From contig CALFWR010000002.1 in the NCBI GenBank assembly GCA_937928555.1, positions 62,001 through 126,000 of the forward strand: a DNA stretch of 64,000 nt, given 5' to 3'. A model generated the notes under the pieces. That model saw only the letters and a program-made list of their open reading frames with translations, had not been told where the DNA came from and did no database searches. Position numbers and translations under genes: made by a program. This document shows, in pieces, positions 760 through 29,451 of this stretch (positions within the stretch are counted from its first letter, which is position 1; the number at the start of each line of letters is the position of its first letter). This DNA is from an uncultured Pirellulaceae bacterium. GTDB lineage: Bacteria; Planctomycetota; Planctomycetia; Pirellulales; Pirellulaceae.

Positions 760-2163
760 ATGGCGGAATCGAGCGCCAAAAACCTGTTGAAACTGCTCGA
801 AAAGAGCAAGCTGGCCGATCCGGACCGGCTCAAGGATTCGCTTTCGTCGTTGTCTGAAAAAGCTGCCGGTCGACGTGTCCGTCAGGATGAACTTGTCGGA
901 CATCTGATCGAAAGCGGCATCATCACCCAGTGGCATGCCGATAAACTTACTGCCGGCAAGTACAAAGGTTTCTTTCTGGACAAGTACAAACTGCTGGGGC
1001 ACCTTGGCACCGGCGGAATGAGCAGCGTTTATCTGGCCGAATCAAAGAGTACCGGTCAGAAGCGAGCCATCAAAGTCCTGCCAAAGAAAAAGGTCTCTGA
1101 CAAAAGTTACCTTGATCGCTTTTATCGCGAAGGCAAAGCTGCCGCCAGTCTGAGTCACCCCAACGTCGTTCGCATCTACGACATCAGCAATTCGGGTGAC
1201 ACGCATTACATGGTCATGGAGTACGTCAAAGGCTCGGACCTGTACGAGAAAGTCAAAGACGAAGGGGCGCTCGGTTTCGACCAAGCCATTGATGCGATCA
1301 TTCAGTCGGCGACCGGATTGCAGCACGCTCACGAGCGTGAGATGGTACACCGTGACATCAAACCGGCCAACCTTTTGATGACCGATGAAGGGGTGGTGAA
1401 AATTCTTGACCTTGGGCTGGCGCTGTTCAGCGAAGAAGGGGAAGAGTCGCTAACGGTTCTGTACAACGAAAAAGTAATGGGCACTGCGGATTATCTTTCG
1501 CCCGAACAGGCGGTCAACTCTCACGAAGTCGACCACCGTGCTGACATCTACAGTCTGGGCTGTACGTTGTATTTCTTGATCGCGGGTCGGCCGCCATTTG
1601 ACAAGGGGACCCTTGCCCAGCGGATCGCGATGCATCAAACCAAAGAGCCCGACGGCATCGAGACGATTCGTCCTGATACGCCCCGGGGGATCATCGACAT
1701 TTGCACGCGGATGATGAAGAAGAAGCCCGAAGATCGATTCGCCGATTGCGGCGAGATCATCGCGGCGCTGAAGAACTACAAAAAAACCGGATCGGGTGTG
1801 ATCGAACACGGGTCTGGCAAATCGGCCGCAGCGTCGGATTCTGGTTCTTCGCTGAATGCCGTGGATGATCCGATCGCCAGTGCGGACAAAGGTTCGATCA
1901 AGCAGCAGGTGGCGTCGCTTTCGAACGTTAACTTTGCAGCAGAAGAGCAACAGCCTGTGGTTCACCATAACGAATTCGAAGTGCAGGCTCACCAATCGAT
2001 CAAGGGCGAGCCGATTCCTGTTGCCAGCAAGCCCAACGCGGCGCCACGGATTCGACGCAGAAAAAAGAAAGCGATTCCCAAGTGGATTATCCCGACGTTG
2101 ATCGCTTCAATGCTGGCGATTCTGACCGCCTTGTTGGTGGTGGTGTCGAAATTCTCCAGTTGA
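760..2163 (+). CDS. Tail-anchored Ser/Thr protein kinase
   Basis: 467 residues. An N-terminal leader of about 75 residues (ending near DKLTAGKYKGFFLDKY) is of a kind common before planctomycete kinase domains. The kinase domain follows: glycine loop GHLGTGGMSSVY (80-91), lysine in AIK (K105), catalytic HRDIKPANLL (H197-D199), a metal-binding DLG (217-219) in place of DFG, and GTADYLSPEQ (241-250) in the activation region. A polar linker follows from about 340, rich in Ser, Asp and Gln. The protein ends in a single hydrophobic segment (about 440-463) with only a few residues after it, so the kinase probably faces the cytoplasm as a tail-anchored protein. No FHA, PASTA or sensor domain is fused. 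The targets are unknown. The gene is convergent with the sulfotransferase downstream. Confidence 0.93.
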   Translation: MAESSAKNLLKLLEKSKLADPDRLKDSLSSLSEKAAGRRVRQDELVGHLIESGIITQWHADKLTAGKYKGFFLDKYKLLGHLGTGGMSSVYLAESKSTGQKRAIKVLPKKKVSDKSYLDRFYREGKAAASLSHPNVVRIYDISNSGDTHYMVMEYVKGSDLYEKVKDEGALGFDQAIDAIIQSATGLQHAHEREMVHRDIKPANLLMTDEGVVKILDLGLALFSEEGEESLTVLYNEKVMGTADYLSPEQAVNSHEVDHRADIYSLGCTLYFLIAGRPPFDKGTLAQRIAMHQTKEPDGIETIRPDTPRGIIDICTRMMKKKPEDRFADCGEIIAALKNYKKTGSGVIEHGSGKSAAASDSGSSLNAVDDPIASADKGSIKQQVASLSNVNFAAEEQQPVVHHNEFEVQAHQSIKGEPIPVASKPNAAPRIRRRKKKAIPKWIIPTLIASMLAILTALLVVVSKFSS

Positions 2164-15799: not shown

Positions 15800-17008
15800 C
15801 TACCTTCCGTCCCACGTTTCGGGATAGATGACCAGTTCGATCCGGCGGTTGGGGCTTACCCCGCCAACGACTCCTTGACGATGACGTGGCCGATTGCTGG
15901 CCATTCCCATGGTAAACATTTGTCGGTTGGGGATTCCCAGACGAACAAGTTCTTCAAAGACTGCCAGCGATTGGGTGGCGGTCAGTTGGTGATCGGTGGT
16001 TCCGGGTGGGTTCAGCGGTGTGCCATCCCAATGGGCTTCGATGCCGATGATTTGGCGGGGGAACGATTCGCGAATCGTCGATGCGACGTTCTGTAACAGT
16101 GGCAACTGGCCCGGTTGAACACGGAAGCTTCCGGATGTGAACAAGCGGTCGGTTGGGAATTCGATGCGGATCACGTCTCCATCCATTCGCGTGTCACCGC
16201 CGGGAATCCGGATCGCGTTGAGCTTTTGCATCAGCCCGTTGTTGGCCCGGATTGTTGCTGACCCGCCGGGAACGTTACCGCCTGAAAACCCTGCGTTTTG
16301 AAAGGGTCCCGGGTTGTCGAACCGCGAGCCCGAACCGCGCTGCCCCGGGCCGCTGGAAGCGGGCTGAAATGGCCGGTTCTGCAAGGAATCAAGTCTGCTT
16401 TGACGTTGAGCCAGCAGGCTGTCCTGTTCCTGAATTCTCTGCGTGAGTTGCTGGACCTGTTGCTGCAAACCGACAAACTGTTGCTGGTTGATACGGTCCT
16501 GGCTGCCGGAACGGTTTATCCGCCCGGTCATGTCAGAAAGCTGTTGCTTCAAGGTTTGGTTGTACTGATTGGCCAACTCCAGTTTTTGTTGCAACGTGGC
16601 GACTTCGGTGTTGAGCAGTTCGTTGTCCGCGTCGTAAGCTCCGATGCGTTGACTGAGTCGTGAGTGCTCCTGATTGAATTGGAATGGATTCGACCCTGCG
16701 GCAGAACCACTAGGGATCTGTCCGCCGCCAAATTGCCCAGCGATTTGCCCAAGGCCGGAATTTGCCGCCTGTGCGACCTGTTGATTGCGAGCGAAAGGGT
16801 TACTGAACGATGAACCGCCAAAGCCACCTCCGCCAAAGAGCGAAGAACCCGAACTGCTCACAGGCCGGTTGCCAAATCCGAACAGGCCTCCGGTTCGGTT
16901 CTGCGGTTGGCATCCGGAAATGAGAATCACGCAGCAAGCCAAAACGGCAACAGCTCGAACTGAGGCGAAGCGGCAGGCTGAAGATTGGTGGGTTGATTGG
17001 AGTGTCAT
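15800..17008 (-). CDS. OmpA-family outer-membrane lipoprotein with coiled coil
   Basis: 402 residues. The leader (AVAVLACCVILISGC) ends in a lipobox with C33, so the protein should be lipid-anchored. Then come a Gly/Ser/Phe-rich low-complexity stretch (40-110), a coiled coil with many Gln residues (about 125-210), a second Gly/Pro linker, and a C-terminal OmpA-like domain (about 275-402) with IEFPTDRLFTSGSFRV, IIGIEAHWDGTPLN and SPNRRIELVIYP, which corresponds to the peptidoglycan-binding fold. It is likely to tie the outer membrane to the cell wall, or to act as a scaffold. The start at 17006-17008 has only a weak ribosome site. Confidence 0.87.
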   Translation of the reverse strand: MTLQSTHQSSACRFASVRAVAVLACCVILISGCQPQNRTGGLFGFGNRPVSSSGSSLFGGGGFGGSSFSNPFARNQQVAQAANSGLGQIAGQFGGGQIPSGSAAGSNPFQFNQEHSRLSQRIGAYDADNELLNTEVATLQQKLELANQYNQTLKQQLSDMTGRINRSGSQDRINQQQFVGLQQQVQQLTQRIQEQDSLLAQRQSRLDSLQNRPFQPASSGPGQRGSGSRFDNPGPFQNAGFSGGNVPGGSATIRANNGLMQKLNAIRIPGGDTRMDGDVIRIEFPTDRLFTSGSFRVQPGQLPLLQNVASTIRESFPRQIIGIEAHWDGTPLNPPGTTDHQLTATQSLAVFEELVRLGIPNRQMFTMGMASNRPRHRQGVVGGVSPNRRIELVIYPETWDGR

Positions 17009-18711: not shown

Positions 18712-21700
18712 CTAGAAAAGATCGTCAAGCGTTGTCCAATCGATGTCGCTTCGAGAGCTGATTCGTTTGACAAGTTCGATAGCGTCGGGCCGCTGTGACA
18801 TCAGGCGAAAGGCAACCGATGCAAAGGAAATGTCTTCGGCCTCAAAACAGACGACCAAGCTTCCTGTAGACCCCTGCATTGTGAGTGATTCAAAGTTCAG
18901 GTTTGCCCCAATGACTCGGTTGGTTTCAGGGTTTTCCGAGAAGGCCGGAAATGCGAACAGTAGTCGCATTTCGCCACCGCAGTCCGCGACTCGGGGCCGA
19001 GCCTCAATGACCCGACAATTGAGCCATTGGACAAGCTGCTCCGGTGCGACGCCGTTTTCCTCGATGATTTCGTCGATCGAGATTGTCTCGTACATTTTCC
19101 GAAGCACGATATGGGCTGCTTCGCGGATTTCGGCTGGCAGTTGATATCGCCAATAAGACATATCCGAGAGTGCGTTGGAAAACGTGCCGGTCGTTTCGAT
19201 GATGGAACCGAAAACCTGAAGTTCGGATTTTCTGGCCAGTTGTTTGATGGATGCTTCAATTTTATTGATCAACAGTTTTTGGAGATCAAAGGCATCATTT
19301 TCGACGCCGAAGTCAAACTCGAGTGCAACCGTCTTACAGAATTCTTCTCGAACGCATTCGAGATTGGTCTTGTAGTTGTCCAACTGGGAGCGAACTGGCT
19401 CAAGTCCGTTATTGACGACCCTGAAGAACTCGCTGGTATACCGTTGAACAAATTCTTGTTCGCGAAGTTCAAACAGTTGCCCGCAGAGCGATTCGACGGT
19501 GTCCAGTCCGACTTCATCAAATCCATTTTTTGAGCGGTGGATCGCGGACACAACATTGGAAATTTCGTCAAAGAGTTCCTCGCATTTGTTCCTGGCCGAG
19601 TCAATTGGTTCCTGTAGTTGCTCACCAATTTTGTCGATAACGTGACGAATCAGGGACAGGCAATTGCCTCGTGAATCTACCAGGCCTGCGACTTTTCGAG
19701 CCAACAGGTACTCTCCCGAAACCGGATGGGTCGAGATCCACTGGTCCAGGTCAGCGGCGAGTTCGGGTTCCACATGCGAAGCATCCCGTCGATGTCGGGG
19801 TGCCCCGAAATAGCCGTCCAAATGTTCCGTGATCGCCGACTCAATTTCATCGTTTGCTTCGACAACACCGATGAGTTTCTGAATTTGATCGCCTTTTTGC
19901 GATTTGGTCTTTTTGAGCGTTTCTTCTGAGACAAGTTTTGAAATGGAATCCGGATCCAGATCAAACTCGCTGACCAATTCGTCAAACTTTTGTTCGATTG
20001 TGGCCGGTTCCGGATTGCTGTTGATCCAGCGGGTGACAAGGTTTTGTCCCAGTCGATCGGTAATTCCATCGTGAAGGCTTGGATCGCCAATTCCGCTGAC
20101 TGAAAGTCCGAGTGAACGCAATCCAAAGTGCTCACGCTGGAACTCATTCGCGCGACAGGCTTCAAAGTACGGTCGGCATCTGGAGGCTGTGGAGAGGGAG
20201 ACATATTCGGCGATCTGCCCAAGTCGCTTTTCGTGCTCGGATTGGCTCAGGTCGTCGCCCAGTTCGACATAGTAGGTGTTGGCGAAGGGTTGTTCTTCTT
20301 CGAATTCGGGAATCCCCAGTGTTTCGTCACCGGGGTAGCCGTACTCGTTGAAGTGACGCATTTCGGTCATGAAGGCAAATGTATTGGCGGTTGCCAGGCC
20401 GGGGTCGCGTTGCCGCTGGTAAGACGAATGCAACAGGATGGCGGTCACATTGTCATCGCGCAACCCTTTTTCGGCCAGCAGAAGTTTGATGGTGTAGGCC
20501 AGGTCAAGGGCCATGCCGCTGCCGATGCCGCCGCTGATTGATGTGATTAGGTAGATTTGTGGCGCGGTGACTTCTCCGGGAAGCATTTCCAGTGACTCGC
20601 AGGTGTCGGCGAGATTTTCCGCTTTGGCGAGTTCGTCGATGGCACGTTCGAGCGTATCGCAGATTGTGTTGAAATGGTCGGCAAATACGAGTCGTCCCAA
20701 TGGCCGGAGACCTTCGGTTTGGAGTGTGCGCGGGACGTTGTAAATCCATCTTCGGCTAAGCCAGTTAAGATGCACTTCGGCGTTGCTGCGGTAGTCTTCG
20801 GGTTTGCGAAGTGGAACGTGGACTGATTCGAGGGTGGAAACAGGATTGGTTCGCAGCATTTCCAAGCGACCAAGTGCTTTTCGGTCCGAGTCGATGTAGA
20901 CCGACTGAATGGCTGGAATGCAGTCGGGATTTCCGACCCGGGAAACGAGTTTACATTTTGTTTTTTGTCCAATCCGGTTGGCGGTATCGCCAACGGTTAC
21001 GATTAGCGCCGGGTTGAACGAGTTTCTATTGGGGTCAAAATCGGGAGGGGAGGCGATCTGGATTTGCTCTGCCTGAATTGGCAACATATTGTTGCCCATC
21101 ATTTCGGTGGCGTCGCGTGAAACGGATGAGTTCGAACTTTGGAAAACAAGTGTTTCCGAGGAAGAATTCTCCTCGTGGCGGTTCGTCGCTGTCTGTCGGC
21201 GAAGCGTCTTTTTGATCGATCGCTTTTGCTTTTTCAGATCATCGACAAACGCGACGCAGTTCGGGTGGCGCGCGTTGGGATCTTTGGTCAGCGCACGTGC
21301 AATCGCGGCCTGATCGGACTTGGGAAGAGCCCTCAGGTTGGGCTTGCCGTGCATGTGCTGAGCGGCTAACTGGGCAGGGGTAGAACCTGAAAAAGGTCGC
21401 ACTCCGGTAAGCATCTCTGCGTACACAATCGCGAGGGAGTACTGGTCGCTACTGTTGGCGGGTCTTCCGTCGAAGAGTTCTGGTGGCGCGTAGGCTGGAG
21501 TCATGCCCTGCATCAGGGATTGAGTCGCGACCTGGAGGTCTTTCATTAACCCGAAGTCTGCGACTTTCACGTGTCCGCTGACGATCAGCAGGTTCTCGGG
21601 TTTGATGTCGAGGTGCTGGAGTGACTTTTCGGCGGCGAGAAAGTCCAAAGCGTCGGCGGCGTTGGAAATGTACTTCAGCAGTTCTTCCCGCGGAATGCCG

Positions 21701-22026
21701 GATTCGCCCTTGGCGGCGTACTCATTGAACAGGTCCGCCATGCTCGCGTCAGCAAGTTCTGTTACGACGACGAGTTGGTTTTCAAAAATCTCGATTCGTT
21801 CCAGCGAAAGCAGAAACGGATGTCGCAGTGATTTGACGCGATCGAGGGCTTTGAGTTCTGACAGCGCACGCTTTTCGTCGTGATATCCGTAGACGATCTT
21901 GATGGCTTTTTTCAAGCCACCGGGCGCCTCGGCAGACCAGACCTCTCCGAAACCGCCCGAGCCGATTCGCTTCTCGAGACGATATCCGAGGATTTCGCTG
22001 GTCGGTTCTATTGGATTGATTGCCAC
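18712..22026 (-). CDS. Protein kinase fused to a tubulin-like (Tubulin_2-type) domain
   Basis: 1104 residues from GTG 22024-22026. The kinase domain spans about 14-270: glycine loop GSGGFGEVW (22-30), AIK lysine K43, HLDIKPENLL (138-147, HLD instead of HRD), DFG (157-159), APPEL (180-184). A Ser/Asn linker (280-335) leads to a second region starting LIVTVGDTANRIGQ (341-354). There IYLITSISGGIGSGMALDLA (491-510) carries the G-rich GGxGSGM loop of tubulin/FtsZ-like GTPases as seen in the bacterial Tubulin_2 family, followed by AILLHSSYQ and an F.TEMRHF segment. The C-terminal 380 residues are mostly helical with no motif I know. No membrane helix is visible. It lies 23 bases downstream of the AAA+ gene, so they share an operon. 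GTP binding and polymerisation are inferred, not shown. Confidence 0.83.
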   Translation of the reverse strand: MAINPIEPTSEILGYRLEKRIGSGGFGEVWSAEAPGGLKKAIKIVYGYHDEKRALSELKALDRVKSLRHPFLLSLERIEIFENQLVVVTELADASMADLFNEYAAKGESGIPREELLKYISNAADALDFLAAEKSLQHLDIKPENLLIVSGHVKVADFGLMKDLQVATQSLMQGMTPAYAPPELFDGRPANSSDQYSLAIVYAEMLTGVRPFSGSTPAQLAAQHMHGKPNLRALPKSDQAAIARALTKDPNARHPNCVAFVDDLKKQKRSIKKTLRRQTATNRHEENSSSETLVFQSSNSSVSRDATEMMGNNMLPIQAEQIQIASPPDFDPNRNSFNPALIVTVGDTANRIGQKTKCKLVSRVGNPDCIPAIQSVYIDSDRKALGRLEMLRTNPVSTLESVHVPLRKPEDYRSNAEVHLNWLSRRWIYNVPRTLQTEGLRPLGRLVFADHFNTICDTLERAIDELAKAENLADTCESLEMLPGEVTAPQIYLITSISGGIGSGMALDLAYTIKLLLAEKGLRDDNVTAILLHSSYQRQRDPGLATANTFAFMTEMRHFNEYGYPGDETLGIPEFEEEQPFANTYYVELGDDLSQSEHEKRLGQIAEYVSLSTASRCRPYFEACRANEFQREHFGLRSLGLSVSGIGDPSLHDGITDRLGQNLVTRWINSNPEPATIEQKFDELVSEFDLDPDSISKLVSEETLKKTKSQKGDQIQKLIGVVEANDEIESAITEHLDGYFGAPRHRRDASHVEPELAADLDQWISTHPVSGEYLLARKVAGLVDSRGNCLSLIRHVIDKIGEQLQEPIDSARNKCEELFDEISNVVSAIHRSKNGFDEVGLDTVESLCGQLFELREQEFVQRYTSEFFRVVNNGLEPVRSQLDNYKTNLECVREEFCKTVALEFDFGVENDAFDLQKLLINKIEASIKQLARKSELQVFGSIIETTGTFSNALSDMSYWRYQLPAEIREAAHIVLRKMYETISIDEIIEENGVAPEQLVQWLNCRVIEARPRVADCGGEMRLLFAFPAFSENPETNRVIGANLNFESLTMQGSTGSLVVCFEAEDISFASVAFRLMSQRPDAIELVKRISSRSDIDWTTLDDLF

Positions 22027-22049: not shown

Positions 22050-23414
22050 TTAGCTAATTCCCCGGGCCAGCGTGCGGGGAGCATTCGGGTCAATGACCTC
22101 TGTAAAGTAGCTCCCGACCACGCGGTCGAAGTATTCATTGCGGATTTCCAACGGTAAATCGTTGTACACGCAATAGTTTCGGATCTGTCCAAGCAGATCT
22201 CGTGGATGACAACGTCGTAGTCGTCGATTGGTTTTGACGTAATGTTCCTGAATCAGATACTCAACGACTGCCTCGTCGTAGTAGCACTTGACTTTTTCGC
22301 AGTAGATCTGGAACAGAAGATGGAATTCCCGGTGCGATGGGTCGCCGATTTCGATTTTGTAAGGGATCCGCCGCATGAAGGCTTCGTCGACCAGTTGCGA
22401 TGGTTCGAGGTTGGTTGAAAAGATAATCAGCTGCTCAAAGGGCACCTGAATTTTCTTGCCGGAGGCCAGTTGGAGAAAGTCGATACGGCTTTCTAGGGGC
22501 ACGATCCAGCGGTTCAACAACTCCTGTGGCTCAATCCGCTGACGCCCAAAGTCATCGATCAACAGGCAGCCACAGTTGCTTTTCATCTGCAGTGAAGCCT
22601 CACTGACGTTGGAGACGGGGTCGTGACGAATCTCCAACGAATCCATTGTCATCTCGCCACCGACAACCACGGTGGGTCGTTGAATCTTGACCCAACGGCG
22701 ATCAAATGAAGACGCGCTCAAATACGAGTCACTGTCGTCCTGGGCGCGATGATGGTACGCCGAATCAAACAGTTTGATGATCATTCCGTCTTCGTAGATG
22801 GCATGGGGAACCCAAATTTCGTGGCCGAAACACTGGGTAATTCGCTGAGCGATGGTGGATTTTCCGTTGCCCGGTTCGCCGTACAGGAACAGACCGGCCC
22901 CGGAGTTAATCGCCGGTCCGAGACTTTCAAATAGCTCTTCATTGATCGTGATGTCGCCGAAAGCATCCCGCAGTTGGGTGCGTTTTGGCGATTCGGCGCG
23001 AATCGTTTGAGCTTCGGCGCTGAGGACATAGTCCATCAGTGGAACTGGAGCCGGTCCGCCGTAGGAGCAAGCCTGGGTCATCAGGGTAGCGCGATCACGC
23101 CCGCTTTCTGTCAATGAGTAGTTATAGTCATTCAGGGGGGCCGATCCGTTGTGAACCAGATACTGCCGAGCCCGGAGTGTCTGGAACAAGTCTTCCAGTA
23201 CGGTAAACGGAAGGCACAAATCGTTCGCCAGCTGGCGACCGCTGCTGATGCCGACGTTGGACAGGCGTTTGAGAATCAGAGATTCGATCAACGATACAGG
23301 CAGGCCAATGTCGGACAAAGACGACGGCTCCGACGGTCGAAACGACTCGTCAGCCATAATCGTTGCCAACAGGCTGTTGCTTAATGAAGCGCTGCTATCG
23401 ATTGTGTTGGACAT
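22050..23414 (-). CDS. AAA+ ATPase with N-terminal winged-helix-like region
   Basis: 454 residues from ATG 23412-23414 (MSNTIDSSASLSNSLL); a longer frame to 23576 opens with unlikely sequence. Residues 35-115 (LPVSLIESLILKRLSNVGISSGRQLANDL...LTESGRDRA) read as a winged-helix module. The ATPase core has Walker A GEPGNGKST (179-187), Walker B CLLIDDFGRQ (283-292), sensor 1 IIFSTNL (330-336) and an arginine pair RR (348-349) before IPYKIEIG. The C-terminal helices include HPRDLLGQIRNYC, an AAA+ lid feature. Such ATPases remodel or load partner proteins or nucleic acid; the partner here is probably the kinase/tubulin-like protein encoded 23 bases downstream. That link rests on gene order only. 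Confidence 0.82.
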   Translation of the reverse strand: MSNTIDSSASLSNSLLATIMADESFRPSEPSSLSDIGLPVSLIESLILKRLSNVGISSGRQLANDLCLPFTVLEDLFQTLRARQYLVHNGSAPLNDYNYSLTESGRDRATLMTQACSYGGPAPVPLMDYVLSAEAQTIRAESPKRTQLRDAFGDITINEELFESLGPAINSGAGLFLYGEPGNGKSTIAQRITQCFGHEIWVPHAIYEDGMIIKLFDSAYHHRAQDDSDSYLSASSFDRRWVKIQRPTVVVGGEMTMDSLEIRHDPVSNVSEASLQMKSNCGCLLIDDFGRQRIEPQELLNRWIVPLESRIDFLQLASGKKIQVPFEQLIIFSTNLEPSQLVDEAFMRRIPYKIEIGDPSHREFHLLFQIYCEKVKCYYDEAVVEYLIQEHYVKTNRRLRRCHPRDLLGQIRNYCVYNDLPLEIRNEYFDRVVGSYFTEVIDPNAPRTLARGIS

Positions 23415-23739
23415 GTGAATACCAGTGTGGGAGTTTTGCACAAGCGTGCGTGCGAAACAGTAGGTCACCGTTAACGACACCCAACCAGCAAGTCGCGGAA
23501 TTTCTTGCATCGGTTCGTTGACGACATGACACCGATTCTTGATGAACAACCGATTCAGCCGCTGATACCCGAACAACCCGAATCGTCACCGTCGAAGCGG
23601 CGATTGCCAACAGAAAAAGTCTGCCAACTTCCGGAAATCTCACCACTGAACCAAAGCCGCAAGCTAAATCTTCCTGGCAGTAGATGCGTTCAGCAACTGC
23701 GAACGAACAAAAATCAGAGGGCCGTTGGCCCGGTTAACT
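23415..23739. other. Divergent intergenic region between AAA+ and FHA-EAL genes
   Basis: About 325 bases separate the start codons of the two divergent genes and must hold both promoters. I see no convincing -35/-10 pair. A small palindrome GGGCCGTTGGCCC lies just before the FHA-EAL start. Open frames crossing the region in both directions look non-coding. Confidence 0.5.
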
Positions 23740-24954
23740 ATGGCAACTTACGAAGAACAAAAATCCGCCCACGGTCGACGAGCTCCGTCAAAGTGGTTCC
23801 TATCCGGTCAGATATCGGAAAGTGAGCCGTTGCGCAAGTTCACGATGCACGCGTTTCCGTTCACCATCGGGCGAAAGTCAGATGCTTCACTGTGTCTGCC
23901 GACCGGATGTATCTCCAAGGAGCATGCGGAACTGGACCTGGGCGAAGACGGCACACTGGTTATCCGTGACCTTGGAAGTACCAACGGAAGCTATGTCAAT
24001 GGCGAGCCGGTCGTGGGAGAGCGTGTTGTTTTTGAGGATGATATTATCCAGTTCGCGACCATCGTATTGCGAGTCGGTTCTGATCGTGTTCAGTCCGAAG
24101 GCAATACAATCCAGGAAGACGTCTGCGACCACGCCCTAGCGATCATCCAGTTCGAAAAATTGATCAGTGATGGCGGCCTGTATCCGCACTTTCAGCCGAT
24201 TGTCAAACTTTCGGATCAGTCGCGGCTCGGCTACGAAGTCCTTGGACGCAGTCGGCTGTTCGGCCTTCAGTCACCTCACGAGATGTTTCTGGCGGCTTCT
24301 CAATTGAACATGGAAGCCCAACTGAGCGAAGCATTTCGCCACCGCGGTATCGAAATTGGGACCGACTTTGGCAGCGAGATGAACCTGTTCGTCAACACGC
24401 ACCCCAAAGAACTGGACCGCCCCGAGTTTTATGCGTCACTGCACGCTTTGCGTGAGATGGCTCCCGAGCAATCGGTTACTCTGGAGATTCACGAAGGTGC
24501 GTCCACCAATGTGGCGATGATGCGAGAGCTTTGTTCAGTCCTTGCGGATCTGAACATCAAGTTGGCCTTTGACGATTTCGGTGTTGGCCGGGCAAGACTG
24601 GTGGAACTGGGCGAAGTCCGTCCTGACTTTCTCAAGTTCGACATGAAGCTGACCAAGAACATTGAAAATGCGCCTCCCCGACGTCAGGAGTTGGTGGCCT
24701 TGTTTGCCAATATGGTGAACAACCTTGGAATTCAGACACTCGCAGAAGGTGTCGAGACCCGAGAATGCCATCAGATTCTGGTCGAGATGGGATTCCAGTT
24801 GGGGCAGGGCTTTTATTATGGCCGACCCTCGCCATTGTCGAAATTTCAGTCGGAGCGAGGTGACCGCGCTGGTTCGCAAACAGACACCGACTGTCATGAC
24901 GGCAATGATTCGCGAACGGATACCAATCCACGAACGGATGCCGAAACCAAATAA
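23740..24954 (+). CDS. FHA domain-EAL domain protein (c-di-GMP phosphodiesterase-like)
   Basis: 404 residues from ATG 23740. The FHA domain is at about 32-112: FTIGRKSDASLCLP, SKEHAEL, and RDLGSTNGSYVNG, which carry the Arg, Ser, His and Asn residues that bind phosphothreonine. The EAL domain is at about 140-370: FQPIV, EVLGR (166-170, Glu retained in the EAL position), FVNTHPKEL (N219), LEIHE (E249/E252), AFDDFGVGRA (D278, D279), FLKFDMKL (K299), LAEGVET (E337) and GFQLGQGFYYGRP. All metal and catalytic positions I can check are present, so cyclic-di-GMP hydrolysis is plausible. A phosphothreonine reader on an EAL enzyme, next to a kinase operon on the opposite strand, suggests kinase control. 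The gene ends next to the rpmG terminator. Confidence 0.9.
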   Translation: MATYEEQKSAHGRRAPSKWFLSGQISESEPLRKFTMHAFPFTIGRKSDASLCLPTGCISKEHAELDLGEDGTLVIRDLGSTNGSYVNGEPVVGERVVFEDDIIQFATIVLRVGSDRVQSEGNTIQEDVCDHALAIIQFEKLISDGGLYPHFQPIVKLSDQSRLGYEVLGRSRLFGLQSPHEMFLAASQLNMEAQLSEAFRHRGIEIGTDFGSEMNLFVNTHPKELDRPEFYASLHALREMAPEQSVTLEIHEGASTNVAMMRELCSVLADLNIKLAFDDFGVGRARLVELGEVRPDFLKFDMKLTKNIENAPPRRQELVALFANMVNNLGIQTLAEGVETRECHQILVEMGFQLGQGFYYGRPSPLSKFQSERGDRAGSQTDTDCHDGNDSRTDTNPRTDAETK

Positions 24955-25036: not shown

Positions 25037-25216
25037 CTACTTTTTCTTTTCGACGTGCAGCGTGCGTCGACGCAGTCTCGGGCTGTACTTCTTCAGTTTG
25101 AGCTTTTCGCCACCGGATTTGCGGCGAAGCGTGTAGTTGTAGTCGCCGGTCTCTTCACAGACCAGGTGTACTACTTCCAATTTCTTTTTGCGTCCGCCGG
25201 ATTTCTTTTTGGCCAT
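25037..25216 (-). CDS. rpmG: 50S ribosomal protein L33, zinc-free type
   Basis: 59 residues: start ATG 25214-25216, N-terminus MAKKKSGGRKKKLEVVHLVC, followed by EETGDYNYTLRRKSG, LKLKKYSPRLRRRTLHVEKKK. This is the L33 pattern of a basic start, the NYTT-like turn, and KKY.P..RR.TLH.E at the end. The zinc-ribbon L33 has two CxxC pairs; here only one Cys (C20) remains and the later pair is S and L (YSPRLRR), so this is the C-minus form that does not bind zinc. It is a structural part of the large ribosomal subunit. It is a single gene with its own terminator. Confidence 0.93.
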   Translation of the reverse strand: MAKKKSGGRKKKLEVVHLVCEETGDYNYTLRRKSGGEKLKLKKYSPRLRRRTLHVEKKK

Positions 25217-25357
25217 TTTAGGTCACCACAAGGTGAGGGGTCTGCTGTTTTCGAGCGTCGGAGTGTAACAGAGCAGGGCAGGGCAGTTAAGCCGATATTT
25301 TGCCAAGTTTCCCGATTTCTACGCTGATTTCTACGCCTATTGCTGTCGGTTTGGTGG

Positions 25358-27811
25358 CTATCGGCATTCAAGCAGCAATTTCTCAAGCAGGTTCCGATAT
25401 TTTGACTTTTCCCAGCCCGGCGGGACGGCTTTGATGAATCGCAGGAGCTTCTGAGCCTCCTGTTTTCGGCCCAAAGCCACCAGCATCCGGGCGCTCTGGT
25501 ATTTGGCCTCGAACCACGATTCGGTTCCGTTGCGGGTTCGGCTGGCGATCCATCGCCACTGCCCGAGAGCTTTTTCAGGGTCGCCAGAGGGTTCGCCCAG
25601 GGATCGGGCCATCGCTCTGCGCAGTGCGAGACTGTTGGGAGTTTGCGAAATCAGTAGCTGGAAAAGTTCTGCCGCGTCCCCGGTTCGACCCGTCGCGGCG
25701 AGGGCGATGGCTTGGGTTTGGCGAAGAAAGGCCTGGTCGGCTGCGGAGTCGAAGCCTTCTTTTTCCAATGCCGTTTTTGCCAACTCGAGTTGTAGTTGGG
25801 CCAGTTTCTCATTGGCGGGCACCTGCTGCATCCAGGCGACTGCCCGTCTCAGCTCGGTCATTTTCAAGCCGCCATCGAGACTTCGGCTGACCGCAATCGC
25901 AGGCGAGGTGTTGGAGTTGCCGGCAAGTCTTTGGCAAGCGTTCAGAATCAGGGCTCCGAAAGGAAAAGCGTTTTTCTGGCTTTCCTGTTCATCGATTCCC
26001 CAGCGGGGCTGCGTCAAGCGTTTGCCGGTCACGGGGTCGCCACAGGAAAAGGCAACCATTGCCATCTCGCAGGCAAGGTTTGCTTTGGGAAGCCCCGATG
26101 CATTTTTCTGAACGCGCTCCAATCGCGAAATCAGGTTTCGCGCAGTGCCGCGATCGGAACGTTGCTCGACCATTCTGTCCAGGCAAAAGCGAATCTGGCC
26201 AAGGTTCTGCCCGAACGCAGTGGAGGCCGGATCGATTTTGAGCAAGGCATCGAGCGCCTGTTCGATCTTGCTTTCACGGACCAGTTGGCCCGCCAGCCAG
26301 CCGCTGGCTTGACCGGAAGTCGACGAACCGGGCCACGTTTGTGTGTGCTCCATCAGGCGCGCGGTAAAGTCCGGACTCATTGGCTGCAACTGGGTCAACG
26401 TCCAGCATCCGCGCAGATGCACCGAAGGCGCAATTTTCGAGTCCGGTACGCGTTTCGAGTAGTCCAGATACATTGTGGCTGCGGCCTGAAAGTCCTTTGC
26501 CTGTTCGTGGGCTTTGCCACCTTGCACGATGGCCGCCAGGGCCGCGTCGGGATTGCCGTTGTCGATTCTTTCCCGGGCGACCTGTTCGAAAGCTTTTGCG
26601 GCGTCGGCGAAGTTGTTTTTGGCCAAAGCTTCATTTGCGATCCGCAGTAAAATTCGTTCGCCTTTGATGACCGGCGCCGAATCATTTGCTGACGCCGGTA
26701 GCTGGCCCAGCAGCATCAGGTCGGCTTGCCGCGACCAGTACGGCCCATGTCGGGCGATACGACCGGCCACTTCTGCGGCCCCTTCGGAGCGACCGGCGAC
26801 CAGTAGCAATTTCAAAAACGCAATCTCCGTTTCGGCACGATCGAGTGTTTTGGCGTTGACGCCCGCGGCCGTTTCCATGATCGACTCGCGCTCGCCTTTG
26901 GCGATGGCTAACTCGAAGGCCTGCTCAAGCATCAGCATGTCGGTTGTCTTGGGGCGTTTCTTGCTGTGAAGGCTTTGCAGGACTTCGGCTGCGCGACCAA
27001 ATTCTTCCATCAGTCTCAGCCCGGCAAGCTGGTCGATTTTTGTCTTCCACCAAAGTTCCCGCGTGTCCGAAACCCGCTTGCGTACTTCTTCCAGACGTTT
27101 GAGAGAACTGTTGAGCGAATCAATTTTGTCCAGGTTGTTGCCCTGTTGCTGATACAGAGACGCCAGCACAAGATCGGAAACGGCCAAGCGGTATTGGATG
27201 TTGGCATCAAGCGATTTCAGTTGATCATCGTCAAGGCCCGGTTGCGGACGACGACCCTGAAGCTGCTGCGAAACCTCCCAGCCATTTTTCTCAAGGACCG
27301 ATTTGGCGTCTTTGAGAAAGCGGATGCCGCGGGCAGCTTTGCCCGAACGACTGGCCTGTTTGGCAAAAGTCATCTGGGCCAATGCCTGCTGCATCCAGAC
27401 CAACGGAAGCCGGGCGTTGGATTTGTGCTGGACCTCGAATCGTTCGACCAGTTTGCTTATCGATTCAACCTGCTGCGGCTGTTGGTCGGGCTCAAGCGAA
27501 CCCCGTGTTGTGCGGTTGCGAATTTGCTCTACGGCGATCAGGGCATGGTCTTTTTGGGTTAGCTCGGGACGCAGCAGCAACTCCTCGCAGTGGCTTTCTG
27601 CAAAGTCGGTCAACCCGCGCTTGCGCAAACCAATGACAACGTTGCGCTCGCGTTGATCGAAAACGTCGGGGCTGCGCGGATCCTGCAGCACAGTCCCGGA
27701 TCCCGCGCTGGCCCAGAGGCTTAGGCAGAAGCATACGTAGACGCTTAGATTAAAGCTTAAATTAAAGCCCATGCAGCGGCTGAGGCTGACAACACGCACC
27801 ATCGAAGTCAT
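25358..27811 (-). CDS. Secreted or surface TPR-rich protein of the ExbBD operon
   Basis: 817 residues. The start at 27811 overlaps the ExbD stop by four bases (ATGA), supporting coupling, and leads into a long hydrophobic leader (MGFNLSFNLSVYVCFCLSLWASA from the internal Met 14). The remainder is helical and rich in Ala, Leu, Gln and Glu in roughly 34-residue periods (for example ALAKNNFADAAKAFEQVARE, DAAELFQLLISQTPNSLALR), as in TPR solenoids. It has no catalytic motif. TPR proteins encoded with ExbB/ExbD pairs often connect the membrane motor to envelope or outer-membrane processes; that is inference. It is the last gene of the operon. Confidence 0.82.
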   Translation of the reverse strand: MTSMVRVVSLSRCMGFNLSFNLSVYVCFCLSLWASAGSGTVLQDPRSPDVFDQRERNVVIGLRKRGLTDFAESHCEELLLRPELTQKDHALIAVEQIRNRTTRGSLEPDQQPQQVESISKLVERFEVQHKSNARLPLVWMQQALAQMTFAKQASRSGKAARGIRFLKDAKSVLEKNGWEVSQQLQGRRPQPGLDDDQLKSLDANIQYRLAVSDLVLASLYQQQGNNLDKIDSLNSSLKRLEEVRKRVSDTRELWWKTKIDQLAGLRLMEEFGRAAEVLQSLHSKKRPKTTDMLMLEQAFELAIAKGERESIMETAAGVNAKTLDRAETEIAFLKLLLVAGRSEGAAEVAGRIARHGPYWSRQADLMLLGQLPASANDSAPVIKGERILLRIANEALAKNNFADAAKAFEQVARERIDNGNPDAALAAIVQGGKAHEQAKDFQAAATMYLDYSKRVPDSKIAPSVHLRGCWTLTQLQPMSPDFTARLMEHTQTWPGSSTSGQASGWLAGQLVRESKIEQALDALLKIDPASTAFGQNLGQIRFCLDRMVEQRSDRGTARNLISRLERVQKNASGLPKANLACEMAMVAFSCGDPVTGKRLTQPRWGIDEQESQKNAFPFGALILNACQRLAGNSNTSPAIAVSRSLDGGLKMTELRRAVAWMQQVPANEKLAQLQLELAKTALEKEGFDSAADQAFLRQTQAIALAATGRTGDAAELFQLLISQTPNSLALRRAMARSLGEPSGDPEKALGQWRWIASRTRNGTESWFEAKYQSARMLVALGRKQEAQKLLRFIKAVPPGWEKSKYRNLLEKLLLECR

Positions 27812-28272
27812 CTTTGGTTGTCTCCGGAGATTGCGTAGGAAATCTTCGAATAGCCGCTGGATTTGGCGGCGTCAAATGCGGCCACAACATACTCCAGCGG
27901 GACGCTTTTTTCTGGCCACAGGATCACCGGAACATCGGTGCTGATTGCTCCGATCGCGGCTAATTGTCTGCTGACCTGTTCGATGTCGGCCATGGCTTGT
28001 TCCTGCAAGATCCACGTGGCAGCGGCACCGTCGAATTCGATGCGAATGACCAGATTGTCCAGGTCCGACTGTTCGGGCGGCGGATCGATGTCGATGTTTT
28101 GCTGGCCCGATTCGGTGACCAGTTGGCTGGGCAGTACCTGTTCGACGATCTGAAAGCTGGCGGTCCAGACGAAAAACACCAACAGGAGAAACACGACATC
28201 GATCATCGGCGTCATGGCCGAATCGATATCGACGTCGGATCCGGATTGAACAAGCTGGCTGGGTCGACGCAT
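27808..28272 (-). CDS. ExbD/TolR biopolymer transport protein (second copy)
   Basis: 154 residues from ATG 28270-28272, one base after the stop of the first ExbD; the longer frame upstream overlaps that gene. Residues 18-42 (SAMTPMIDVVFLLLVFFVWTASF) are the ExbD/TolR signature: a TPMID motif, where the Asp carries protons, followed by a single membrane helix. A periplasmic domain follows (about 45-154) with the usual strands. With ExbB it should form a proton-driven inner-membrane motor. Two different ExbD proteins in one operon suggest a heteromeric complex. Confidence 0.9.
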   Translation of the reverse strand: MRRPSQLVQSGSDVDIDSAMTPMIDVVFLLLVFFVWTASFQIVEQVLPSQLVTESGQQNIDIDPPPEQSDLDNLVIRIEFDGAAATWILQEQAMADIEQVSRQLAAIGAISTDVPVILWPEKSVPLEYVVAAFDAAKSSGYSKISYAISGDNQR

Positions 28273-28273
28273 G

Positions 28274-28696
28274 CTATCGCTCGCTTTGGTAGACCGCGAA
28301 ACCAACATCCCAAAGCCCGGCTTTGGTGCAGGCCAGCATGATTGGTTCGACTTTGGACCAGGGAACTGTTTTGCTGGAGCGAATGCGGACCTGAAGGTCT
28401 TTGCCTTTGTCCTGGCAAACGGTTTGCAGCATCGGTTCAAGTTGCTTCGAGAGCAGCAGACGACCGGAGACTTTCATCGTCCCGTCATCAAGAATATTGA
28501 TCGTCACGCGCGGCGTGGGGCTGGATTCGTCTTTGTCGCTTGCCGCGGCCACCGGCAGATCAAGATCCTGCTGGGCTTCCTGGCGAGCCAAATGGCTGCT
28601 GACGAGAAAGAAAATGATCAGCAGAAACACGACGTCGATCATCGGCGTCATGTTGAACCCGAACTTTCGCGATGGCTTGTAGCGTGGGACGCGCAT
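28274..28696 (-). CDS. ExbD/TolR biopolymer transport protein (first copy)
   Basis: 140 residues. KFGFNMTPMIDVVFLLIIFFLVSSHL (about 11-36) is the single-helix ExbD motif with the proton-carrying Asp. The C-terminal periplasmic part (about 40-140) contains DKDESSPTPRVTINILDDGTMKVSGRL and a VQVR-like strand as in ExbD. Its start codon overlaps the ExbB stop by one base, indicating coupling. It differs clearly from the second ExbD encoded downstream, so it is not a recent duplicate. Confidence 0.92.
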   Translation of the reverse strand: MRVPRYKPSRKFGFNMTPMIDVVFLLIIFFLVSSHLARQEAQQDLDLPVAAASDKDESSPTPRVTINILDDGTMKVSGRLLLSKQLEPMLQTVCQDKGKDLQVRIRSSKTVPWSKVEPIMLACTKAGLWDVGFAVYQSER

Positions 28697-29451
28697 TACT
28701 TGGCCCTTTTGGCTTTTCGCCGTAGCGGGCTGAACACATGCTGCACCACGTAAGAGGCTTCGGCGACCATCTGGTCAATCCGGTTGCGAAAAACCGCGAA
28801 CGCCCCAATCGACGGGATCGCCACCAACAGCCCACCAACCGTTGTCACGAGTGCCTGGTAAATGCCTTCGGCAAGTTCCGGGGCGCTGGCGGTTCCTTGG
28901 GTCGATGCGACGCCCTGAAAGGCCATGATCATCCCGATCACCGTGCCCAGCAGCCCGATCATCGGTGCCAGGTTTCCGATCACCGACAGGTATTCGATTT
29001 TGCGAAACAGCCGCGCGGACTGTTCGGCCAAAGCATCTTCGACGGATTTCTCGACGCTGTTCCAGCCGAATTCGAGTTCGGAGATACCGTGCATCAAAAC
29101 AAACGACAGAAAACTGGGATTGGCTTTGCAGGCTTCCTGAGCCTGAGCCACGTTGCCTTCGAGCAGATGCCCGCGGACGGTGTCGCCAAGCCCCTCAGGC
29201 ATTAGGTCTTTGCGGCGGATCGTCAACAGGTGGTCGATGACCAGGTACGCCGAAATGACCGACAGGACCATCAGCAAAATGATGATCATGATTCCGATGA
29301 TGCCGCCGGAAAAAATGATTTCGAAGAAGCTTTTGCTACCCGCCGGTTCGGCCTCCTGCAGTATCGGTGTCAAGAGTGCCAACAGGCTATTCGTTTGCCC
29401 AGGTGGAATCACCAAACTTCTCCTTGAGTTCCTGCAGCAACCTTGCTGCAT
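28696..29451 (-). CDS. ExbB/TolQ-type MotA/TolQ/ExbB proton channel
   Basis: 251 residues if read from ATG 29449-29451, but this overlaps the upstream gene by 65 bases; a TTG at 29380-29382 just past that gene's stop would give 228 residues and is an equal candidate. Three membrane helices are seen: GGIIGIMIIILLMVLSVISAYLV, LSVIGNLAPMIGLLGTVIGMIMAF and ALVTTVGGLLVAIPSIGAFAVF. The second and third match the highly conserved ExbB/TolQ helices, with LGTVIGMI. With the two ExbD proteins it forms the motor. It probably powers an outer-membrane or periplasmic process rather than TonB, since no TonB is in the window. Confidence 0.92.
   Translation of the reverse strand: MQQGCCRNSRRSLVIPPGQTNSLLALLTPILQEAEPAGSKSFFEIIFSGGIIGIMIIILLMVLSVISAYLVIDHLLTIRRKDLMPEGLGDTVRGHLLEGNVAQAQEACKANPSFLSFVLMHGISELEFGWNSVEKSVEDALAEQSARLFRKIEYLSVIGNLAPMIGLLGTVIGMIMAFQGVASTQGTASAPELAEGIYQALVTTVGGLLVAIPSIGAFAVFRNRIDQMVAEASYVVQHVFSPLRRKAKRAK

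Follow-up and report, generated by a model that had tools for sequence, protein, structure and literature searches.

The closest described system to the one reported here is DgcB (Bd0742), an FHA-GGDEF diguanylate cyclase of Bdellovibrio that is gated by a phosphorylated threonine in its own tail, and whose kinase is not identified in the available part of that report (PMC6733907). Both features of the DgcB type are found in the FHA-EAL protein that is the subject of this study: an FHA domain is fused to a c-di-GMP enzyme domain, and a conserved threonine lies in a flexible segment outside the FHA fold, a residue that in the accessible text on DgcB is the proposed ligand (PMC6733907). The two proteins differ in that DgcB makes c-di-GMP through its GGDEF domain, whereas FHA-EAL is predicted to degrade it through its EAL domain, in that the threonine belongs to the N-terminal tail of DgcB but to the linker between the FHA and EAL domains here, and in that a conserved kinase gene neighbors FHA-EAL. 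Sequence matches were also obtained to GarA and OdhI, which, according to the part of the same report available, likewise combine an FHA fold with a threonine self-ligand (PMC6733907). As for the EAL fold and its catalytic positions, the protein resembles RocR, PdeA, and MorA, whose sensory input domains are other than FHA. GarA and OdhI, for their part, lack a c-di-GMP domain and have metabolic enzymes as their binding partners.

The neighboring kinase, here called KinTub, combines Pkinase and Tubulin_2 in the same way as the kinase-FtsZl1 (FtsZ-like-1, Tubulin_2, PF13809) fusions described in planctomycetes (PMC2875224, PMC9871819, PMC11032199). The published context of FtsZl1, in the portions of these papers available, consists of vWA, GTPase, and OmpA genes, in contrast to the AAA and FHA-EAL genes that accompany KinTub. 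In the 2010 paper (PMC2875224), a reviewer drew attention to one diguanylate phosphodiesterase, Psta_0487, whose gene lies next to FtsZl1 in Pirellula staleyi, an association that the authors set aside as not conserved; the accessible text of that paper mentions neither an FHA domain nor the AAA gene nor any conservation. In the open-access library searched, Psta_0487 was found in PMC2875224 alone, and no report was found on FHA-EAL proteins, on FHA plus EAL in Planctomycetes, or on forkhead-associated domains together with EAL and c-di-GMP.

Organization of the FHA-EAL locus

The window, i.e., the whole stretch of 64,000 nucleotides analyzed here, belongs to contig C2 of an assembly of 4.87 Mb. 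Among named organisms, Mariniblastus and other Pirellulaceae are the closest relatives of this assembly. The FHA-EAL gene (23740..24954, plus strand) encodes a protein of 404 aa (P0001) from an ATG start; use of an in-frame TTG at 23725 would extend the N terminus by five residues. Pfam places an FHA domain at residues 42-105 (23863..24054, plus strand; E 3e-15, 56.8 bits against a gathering score of 20.7) and an EAL domain at residues 139-363 (24154..24828, plus strand; E 3.2e-41, 141.7 bits against 31.3). The original prediction had assigned an FHA-EAL fusion to this ORF, and both its coordinates and its domain calls were right. The FHA site is complete (G44, R45, S59, H62, S80, T81, N82, G83, N87, G88), with R45, S59, and N82 forming what we take to be the phospho-threonine site. 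As had also been predicted, the catalytic EAL positions are present: all nine of those looked for (E166, N219, E249, E252, D278, D279, K299, E336, Q356), presumably the metal- and substrate-binding and catalytic residues, were found in the window protein and are conserved among its relatives. The AlphaFold model of the EAL part resembles solved structures of EAL phosphodiesterases, with TM-scores (by target) reaching 0.89 in the 50 matches listed, and the protein is predicted to be a c-di-GMP phosphodiesterase.

Two departures from the consensus were observed. The signature EAL triplet reads EVL, and loop 6 reads DDFGVGRARL, a variant that recurs among FHA-EAL proteins of the family. The canonical form of this loop is DDFG-x-G-x-S-S, of which DDFG and the second Gly are retained, and the loop presumably differs from those of RocR, PdeA, and MorA. 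Owing to this departure c-di-GMP hydrolysis could be low, so that activity is predicted rather than assured.

Upstream of FHA-EAL, across a divergent intergenic region of 325 bp (23415..23739) in which a consensus scan detected no sigma-70-like promoter, lies a gene on the minus strand (22050..23414) for an AAA-type P-loop ATPase of 454 aa (P0003). Its Pfam AAA matches are weak and its matches to PDB profiles are to generic AAA ATPases only, mostly around Walker A, but its GxPGNGK and DD motifs are invariant in an alignment of 16 relatives and it forms part of the conserved block described below. After a gap of 23 bp follows KinTub (18712..22026, minus strand; GTG start, 1104 aa, P0002), a Ser/Thr kinase-Tubulin_2 (FtsZ-like-1) fusion with both Pfam matches above cut-off (Pkinase E 9.8e-32, 110.8 bits; Tubulin_2 E 1.5e-26, 94 bits). 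The kinase domain covers residues 15-264 (21235..21984, minus strand) and contains K43, D140 in an HLD motif, and D157 in DFG; from the HLD motif we assume KinTub to be a non-RD kinase. The Tubulin_2 domain covers residues 341-633 (20128..21006, minus strand) and carries a GGIGSG loop. The gene had been described as divergent from a kinase operon. The divergent neighbors are real, but according to Pfam they comprise a single kinase, fused to Tubulin_2, plus an AAA ATPase rather than several kinase genes; the tubulin-like domain had gone unnoticed.

Other genes of the window were also recorded. An OmpA-like gene (15800-17008) lies at least two genes away from KinTub and was not found near other type-a blocks (defined below). 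A further Ser/Thr kinase of 467 aa is encoded at 760-2163 on the plus strand (Pkinase E 2.5e-53). Just downstream of FHA-EAL, a small basic ORF on the minus strand (25037-25218) is ribosomal protein L33-like by eye, and ORFs at 27808-29451 (minus strand) are ExbB/ExbD-like by eye. Elsewhere in the genome of the window, two other AAA relatives (contigs C123 and C115; L178 and L179) were found, with no KinTub or FHA-EAL gene in the stretches fetched around them.

Conservation of the gene neighborhood

In a first sample of 60 family-level genomes, KinTub was found in 35 (best E 1e-95 or lower), with two loci (G034 and G052) that could not be evaluated because contig ends interrupt them, leaving AAA pieces on either side. 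An FHA-EAL-type gene adjoins KinTub in 30 of the 33 evaluable loci, of which 20, including the window, have FHA-EAL divergent from AAA and KinTub (type a) and 10 have an FHA gene of a second type (type b) immediately before KinTub and in the same orientation; in the remaining genomes, G004, G053, and G056, the genes are not adjacent, and a type-b FHA-EAL gene is found elsewhere in the latter two. In a second sample, of 199 family genomes, KinTub was present in 125, and 80 fresh loci were fetched from genomes outside the first sample, with five tests fixed beforehand. Six of these 80 regions were excluded as lying on contigs of earlier named loci, and three of the remaining 74 were cut by contig ends. 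In the 71 evaluable fresh loci, the FHA gene adjoins KinTub in 60 (49 type a, 11 type b), although these adjacency counts include related genomes within genera and do not represent independent events. Loci L092 and L101, whose records are identical to L051 and L064, were removed before counting, and L171 and L172 were kept in the adjacency count but left out of the residue tables. The 11 fresh loci without adjacency comprise eight from one genus, two from the genus of the window, and one other; a search of 12 genomes revealed an FHA-EAL gene elsewhere in all 11 genomes of these fresh loci, G004 being the sole one without.

Gene order is less constant than adjacency. Out of 29 three-gene loci, 25 are divergent and four have all genes on a single strand, in two orders. 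Among the named loci, the orders AAA-KinTub-FHA-EAL (L097, L098), FHA-EAL-AAA-KinTub (L100, L109), and FHA-EAL-KinTub (L096) were found. Outside the block, only 29 of the 406 pairs of these 29 loci have any ORF in common within 7 kb (E 1e-8, more than half of the query). The three proteins also show correlated pairwise distances (Mantel r 0.775, 0.676, and 0.817; 0/2000 permutations), a result compatible with joint inheritance of the block or with mere common descent. Because adjacency is conserved across several gene orders, a partnership in which FHA-EAL works together with the neighboring kinase KinTub is well supported by the genomic evidence.

It is very unlikely that the association reflects nothing beyond shared regulation or history, with the FHA domain reading the targets of other kinases and the linker threonine, T123, acting as a helix cap (T-x-x-E). 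Other kinases are indeed present, one of them in the window (760-2163), FHA-EAL proteins with the same features occur without KinTub, and in locus L089 an orphan FHA-EAL gene directly adjoins a different kinase; against this, adjacency stays while gene order changes and the flanks are mostly unshared. Even less credence, close to none, can be given to a phage-defense module made up of kinase, ATPase, and effector. PADLOC kinase models match the kinase domain of KinTub, and the AAA protein is weakly matched by models of IetA/MkoB, but the kinase matches are generic, FHA-EAL has no PADLOC match, the distances of the three proteins correlate as under co-inheritance, and 125 of the 199 family genomes contain KinTub.

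Intact and degenerate EAL sites in the probable partners of KinTub

The FHA site positions R45, S59, H62, S80, T81, and N82 are invariant in both partner types (39/39 first-set and 60/60 fresh proteins), and it is the EAL domain that sets the two types apart. In type a, to which the window protein belongs, the nine EAL positions are complete in all 49 fresh proteins. In an initial residue table the full set was present in 27/28 type-a proteins, the exception being L066, which lacks E336 although its gene adjoins KinTub; in a larger first set, it was present in 29/30 adjacent and 18/20 orphan proteins, one of the orphan failures being a cut at a contig end. In type b, by contrast, the FHA site is kept and the EAL catalytic set is intact in none of the proteins (0/10 first-set, 0/11 fresh). 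A type-b model nevertheless still matches EAL folds, e.g., FimX. A second FHA-EAL protein (33 per cent identity) is encoded in the genome of the window itself (contig C80; L090:8671-10293, minus strand); its EAL site is degenerate, and it carries a SPOR domain at the C terminus.

Type b is predicted to be non-catalytic and still sits beside KinTub, suggesting that a non-catalytic role could be what all partners share. The EAL domain would then be mainly a c-di-GMP receptor or regulator rather than an enzyme, with c-di-GMP or the state of the FHA domain controlling KinTub through FHA-EAL. That type b has retained its position next to KinTub, its FHA domain, and the threonine of the linker while losing the catalytic set agrees with such a role, as does the FimX-like fold. 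We nevertheless regard it as improbable: a pure receptor would not need the full catalytic set that is found in every fresh type-a protein, and type b has also lost the residues that bind c-di-GMP and metal.

KinTub shows little variation in its kinase site. K43, D140, and D157 are kept in 44/44, 43/44, and 44/44 KinTub proteins, respectively, and the fresh proteins retain the kinase Lys in 74/74, the catalytic Asp in 74/74, and the DFG Asp in 73/74. One KinTub (L078:8129-11482, genome G004) has HLN in place of HLD and is a predicted pseudokinase. No FHA gene was found in the 19-kb stretch of this locus, and no FHA-EAL gene genome-wide at E 1e-15, a threshold that a very divergent type b could escape. 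Loss of the catalytic Asp upon loss of the partner was considered from this single case and is suggestive only; HLD is kept in 11/11 fresh partnerless loci, whose genomes have FHA-EAL elsewhere.

The original prediction was that of direct kinase control, with the FHA domain docking on autophosphorylated KinTub; hydrolysis would in that case be recruited to the tubulin-like assembly and T123 would have a different role. The conserved adjacency and correlated distances, the FHA site intact in 60/60 fresh neighbors, and the Ser/Thr residues in the KinTub linker between the kinase and tubulin domains are all compatible with docking. However, no conserved Thr was seen in this linker. A candidate docking motif, T[EQ][VILM][FMLIV], was found post hoc in the kinase-tubulin linker of 8/42 proteins against 0.78 expected (0/1000 shuffles), but when fixed in advance as a test it failed replication in the fresh set (1/74 against 1.44 expected) and was dropped, which speaks against docking, at least through this linker. 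Docking appears unlikely; of the control originally envisaged, the partnership of FHA-EAL with the kinase is well supported and the proposed mode of contact does not find support. The strongly conserved threonine sits instead in FHA-EAL itself, pointing to a self-ligand switch as in DgcB.

A conserved threonine in the FHA-EAL linker

This threonine, T123 (codon 24106..24108, plus strand), is a candidate phospho-acceptor and FHA self-ligand. It is Thr in 46/50 type-a proteins and then in 49/49 fresh ones (13/13 after clustering at 60 per cent identity), in a linker in which the commonest residue at any other position from 113 to 125 occurs in at most 25 of 50 type-a proteins. An equivalent Thr was found in type b in 12/12 and then in 11/11 fresh proteins, together with a second invariant Thr at residue 3 (11/11 aligned proteins). 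The linker is disordered in the models, with pLDDT below 50 at residues 117-126 in type a and 110-129 in type b. Ser replaces T123 in 1/99 type-a proteins, which gives 95 Thr to 1 Ser, and Asp or Asn in none. FHA domains read phospho-threonine and are not known to read phospho-serine, and the near absence of Ser at this position thus matches the prediction for a self-ligand.

The same numbers bear on T123 as a helix cap, the chief alternative to the self-ligand reading of this residue. The motif T123-x-x-E126 is present in 26/50 and 32/49 type-a proteins, in agreement with capping, but a cap would tolerate Ser, Asp, and Asn, and the reading misfits type b, because in the type-b model the helix starts 12 residues beyond the invariant Thr.

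Among orphan proteins, 4/20 of type a lack T123. A comparison of KinTub-adjacent with orphan proteins for the presence of T123 (79/79 against 16/20, Fisher p 0.0013) was made post hoc and is not relied on, the orphans being more diverse.

Occurrence without KinTub and the c-di-GMP background

FHA-EAL proteins are not confined to the block. The first set includes 20 orphan type-a proteins without KinTub, and 12 FHA-EAL proteins were found outside Planctomycetes, the full catalytic set being present in 11 and a Thr aligned at T123 in 11/12, although lengths are variable and a test of composition gave no significant result. The records outside Planctomycetes (L107-L122, L124) come from, e.g., Rhabdochromatium, Cellvibrionaceae, and Desulfobacteraceae; KinTub is absent from the stretches fetched for them, and it was not found at E 1e-40 in seven FHA-EAL-bearing planctomycete genomes outside the family. 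Since FHA-EAL with the same Thr and catalytic set occurs without KinTub, a T123 switch would not need KinTub everywhere. The orphan gene that adjoins another kinase lies at L089:9088-13185 (genome G043), and that kinase has a DUF5939 domain.

In a phylum-wide set of 199 genomes, AAA relatives were found in 13 and FHA-EAL relatives in nine. That the block is general in the phylum was rejected, as the 11 genomes followed up had no KinTub-like match except one that was kinase-only; as far as sampled, the three-gene block thus appears to be a family-level feature. Spread by plasmids was likewise rejected, with no plasmid record matching at E 1e-20.

The genome of the window has eight GGDEF matches, five EAL matches (one of them a fragment), and one protein with two PilZ matches. 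Because of these GGDEF and PilZ matches, c-di-GMP probably exists as a signal in the source cell, and the GGDEF proteins could supply substrate for the EAL domain of the window. The same genome encodes an FHA-GGDEF protein of 296 aa (contig C40; L182:4184-5074, minus strand) with the domain order of Bdellovibrio DgcB. The presence of FHA-GGDEF alongside FHA-EAL in one genome suggests that both the making and the breaking of c-di-GMP may be under phospho-threonine control.

Discussion

The reading that we favor, to which we assign a probability of roughly 0.47, is a switch resembling that of DgcB, with T123 being phosphorylated by KinTub and then bound by an FHA domain, and c-di-GMP hydrolysis being set in this way. 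The observed features behind it are the domains, the residue conservation, the synteny, and the modeled disorder of the linker. KinTub, as the putative kinase, would phosphorylate T123 in the flexible linker between FHA and EAL; phospho-T123 would then be bound by an FHA domain, more likely that of the partner protomer, and this binding would rearrange the EAL dimer, with hydrolysis going up or down. The AAA ATPase may act with KinTub, perhaps by remodeling the tubulin-like assembly. In type b, a sister group in which the EAL fold is kept and the catalytic site lost, the FHA domain and the threonines could form a switch without phosphodiesterase activity.

A broader version of this model can be put forward only tentatively and is rather unlikely as a whole: by way of the kinase-fused tubulin-like GTPase, a cytoskeleton-like assembly and its state would be coupled, through FHA and T123, to the local breakdown of c-di-GMP, with the AAA protein as remodeler, and the enzyme of a sister lineage would have decayed to a non-catalytic phospho-switch.

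The link between FHA-EAL and KinTub is real and conserved, and better supported than could be known when it was originally predicted. What is new is a variant of an FHA-gated c-di-GMP enzyme with a conserved kinase-tubulin partner, whose mechanism as proposed here is inferred from sequence. To our knowledge, links from Ser/Thr kinases to c-di-GMP have rarely been tied to a named kinase gene. The block brings together a kinase, an enzyme that carries a phospho-reader, and one candidate residue, making such a link testable with three purified proteins, and type b provides a natural contrast, with the same FHA domain and Thr but no catalytic site. The function of FtsZ-like-1 can also be revisited, as conservation of its association with c-di-GMP is now shown for one family; should the coupling of tubulin assembly to c-di-GMP prove true, it would be the first concrete output for the FtsZ-like-1 family. 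Altogether, the data suggest an overlooked switch that may connect kinase signaling, a cytoskeleton-like protein, and c-di-GMP in aquatic Pirellulaceae.
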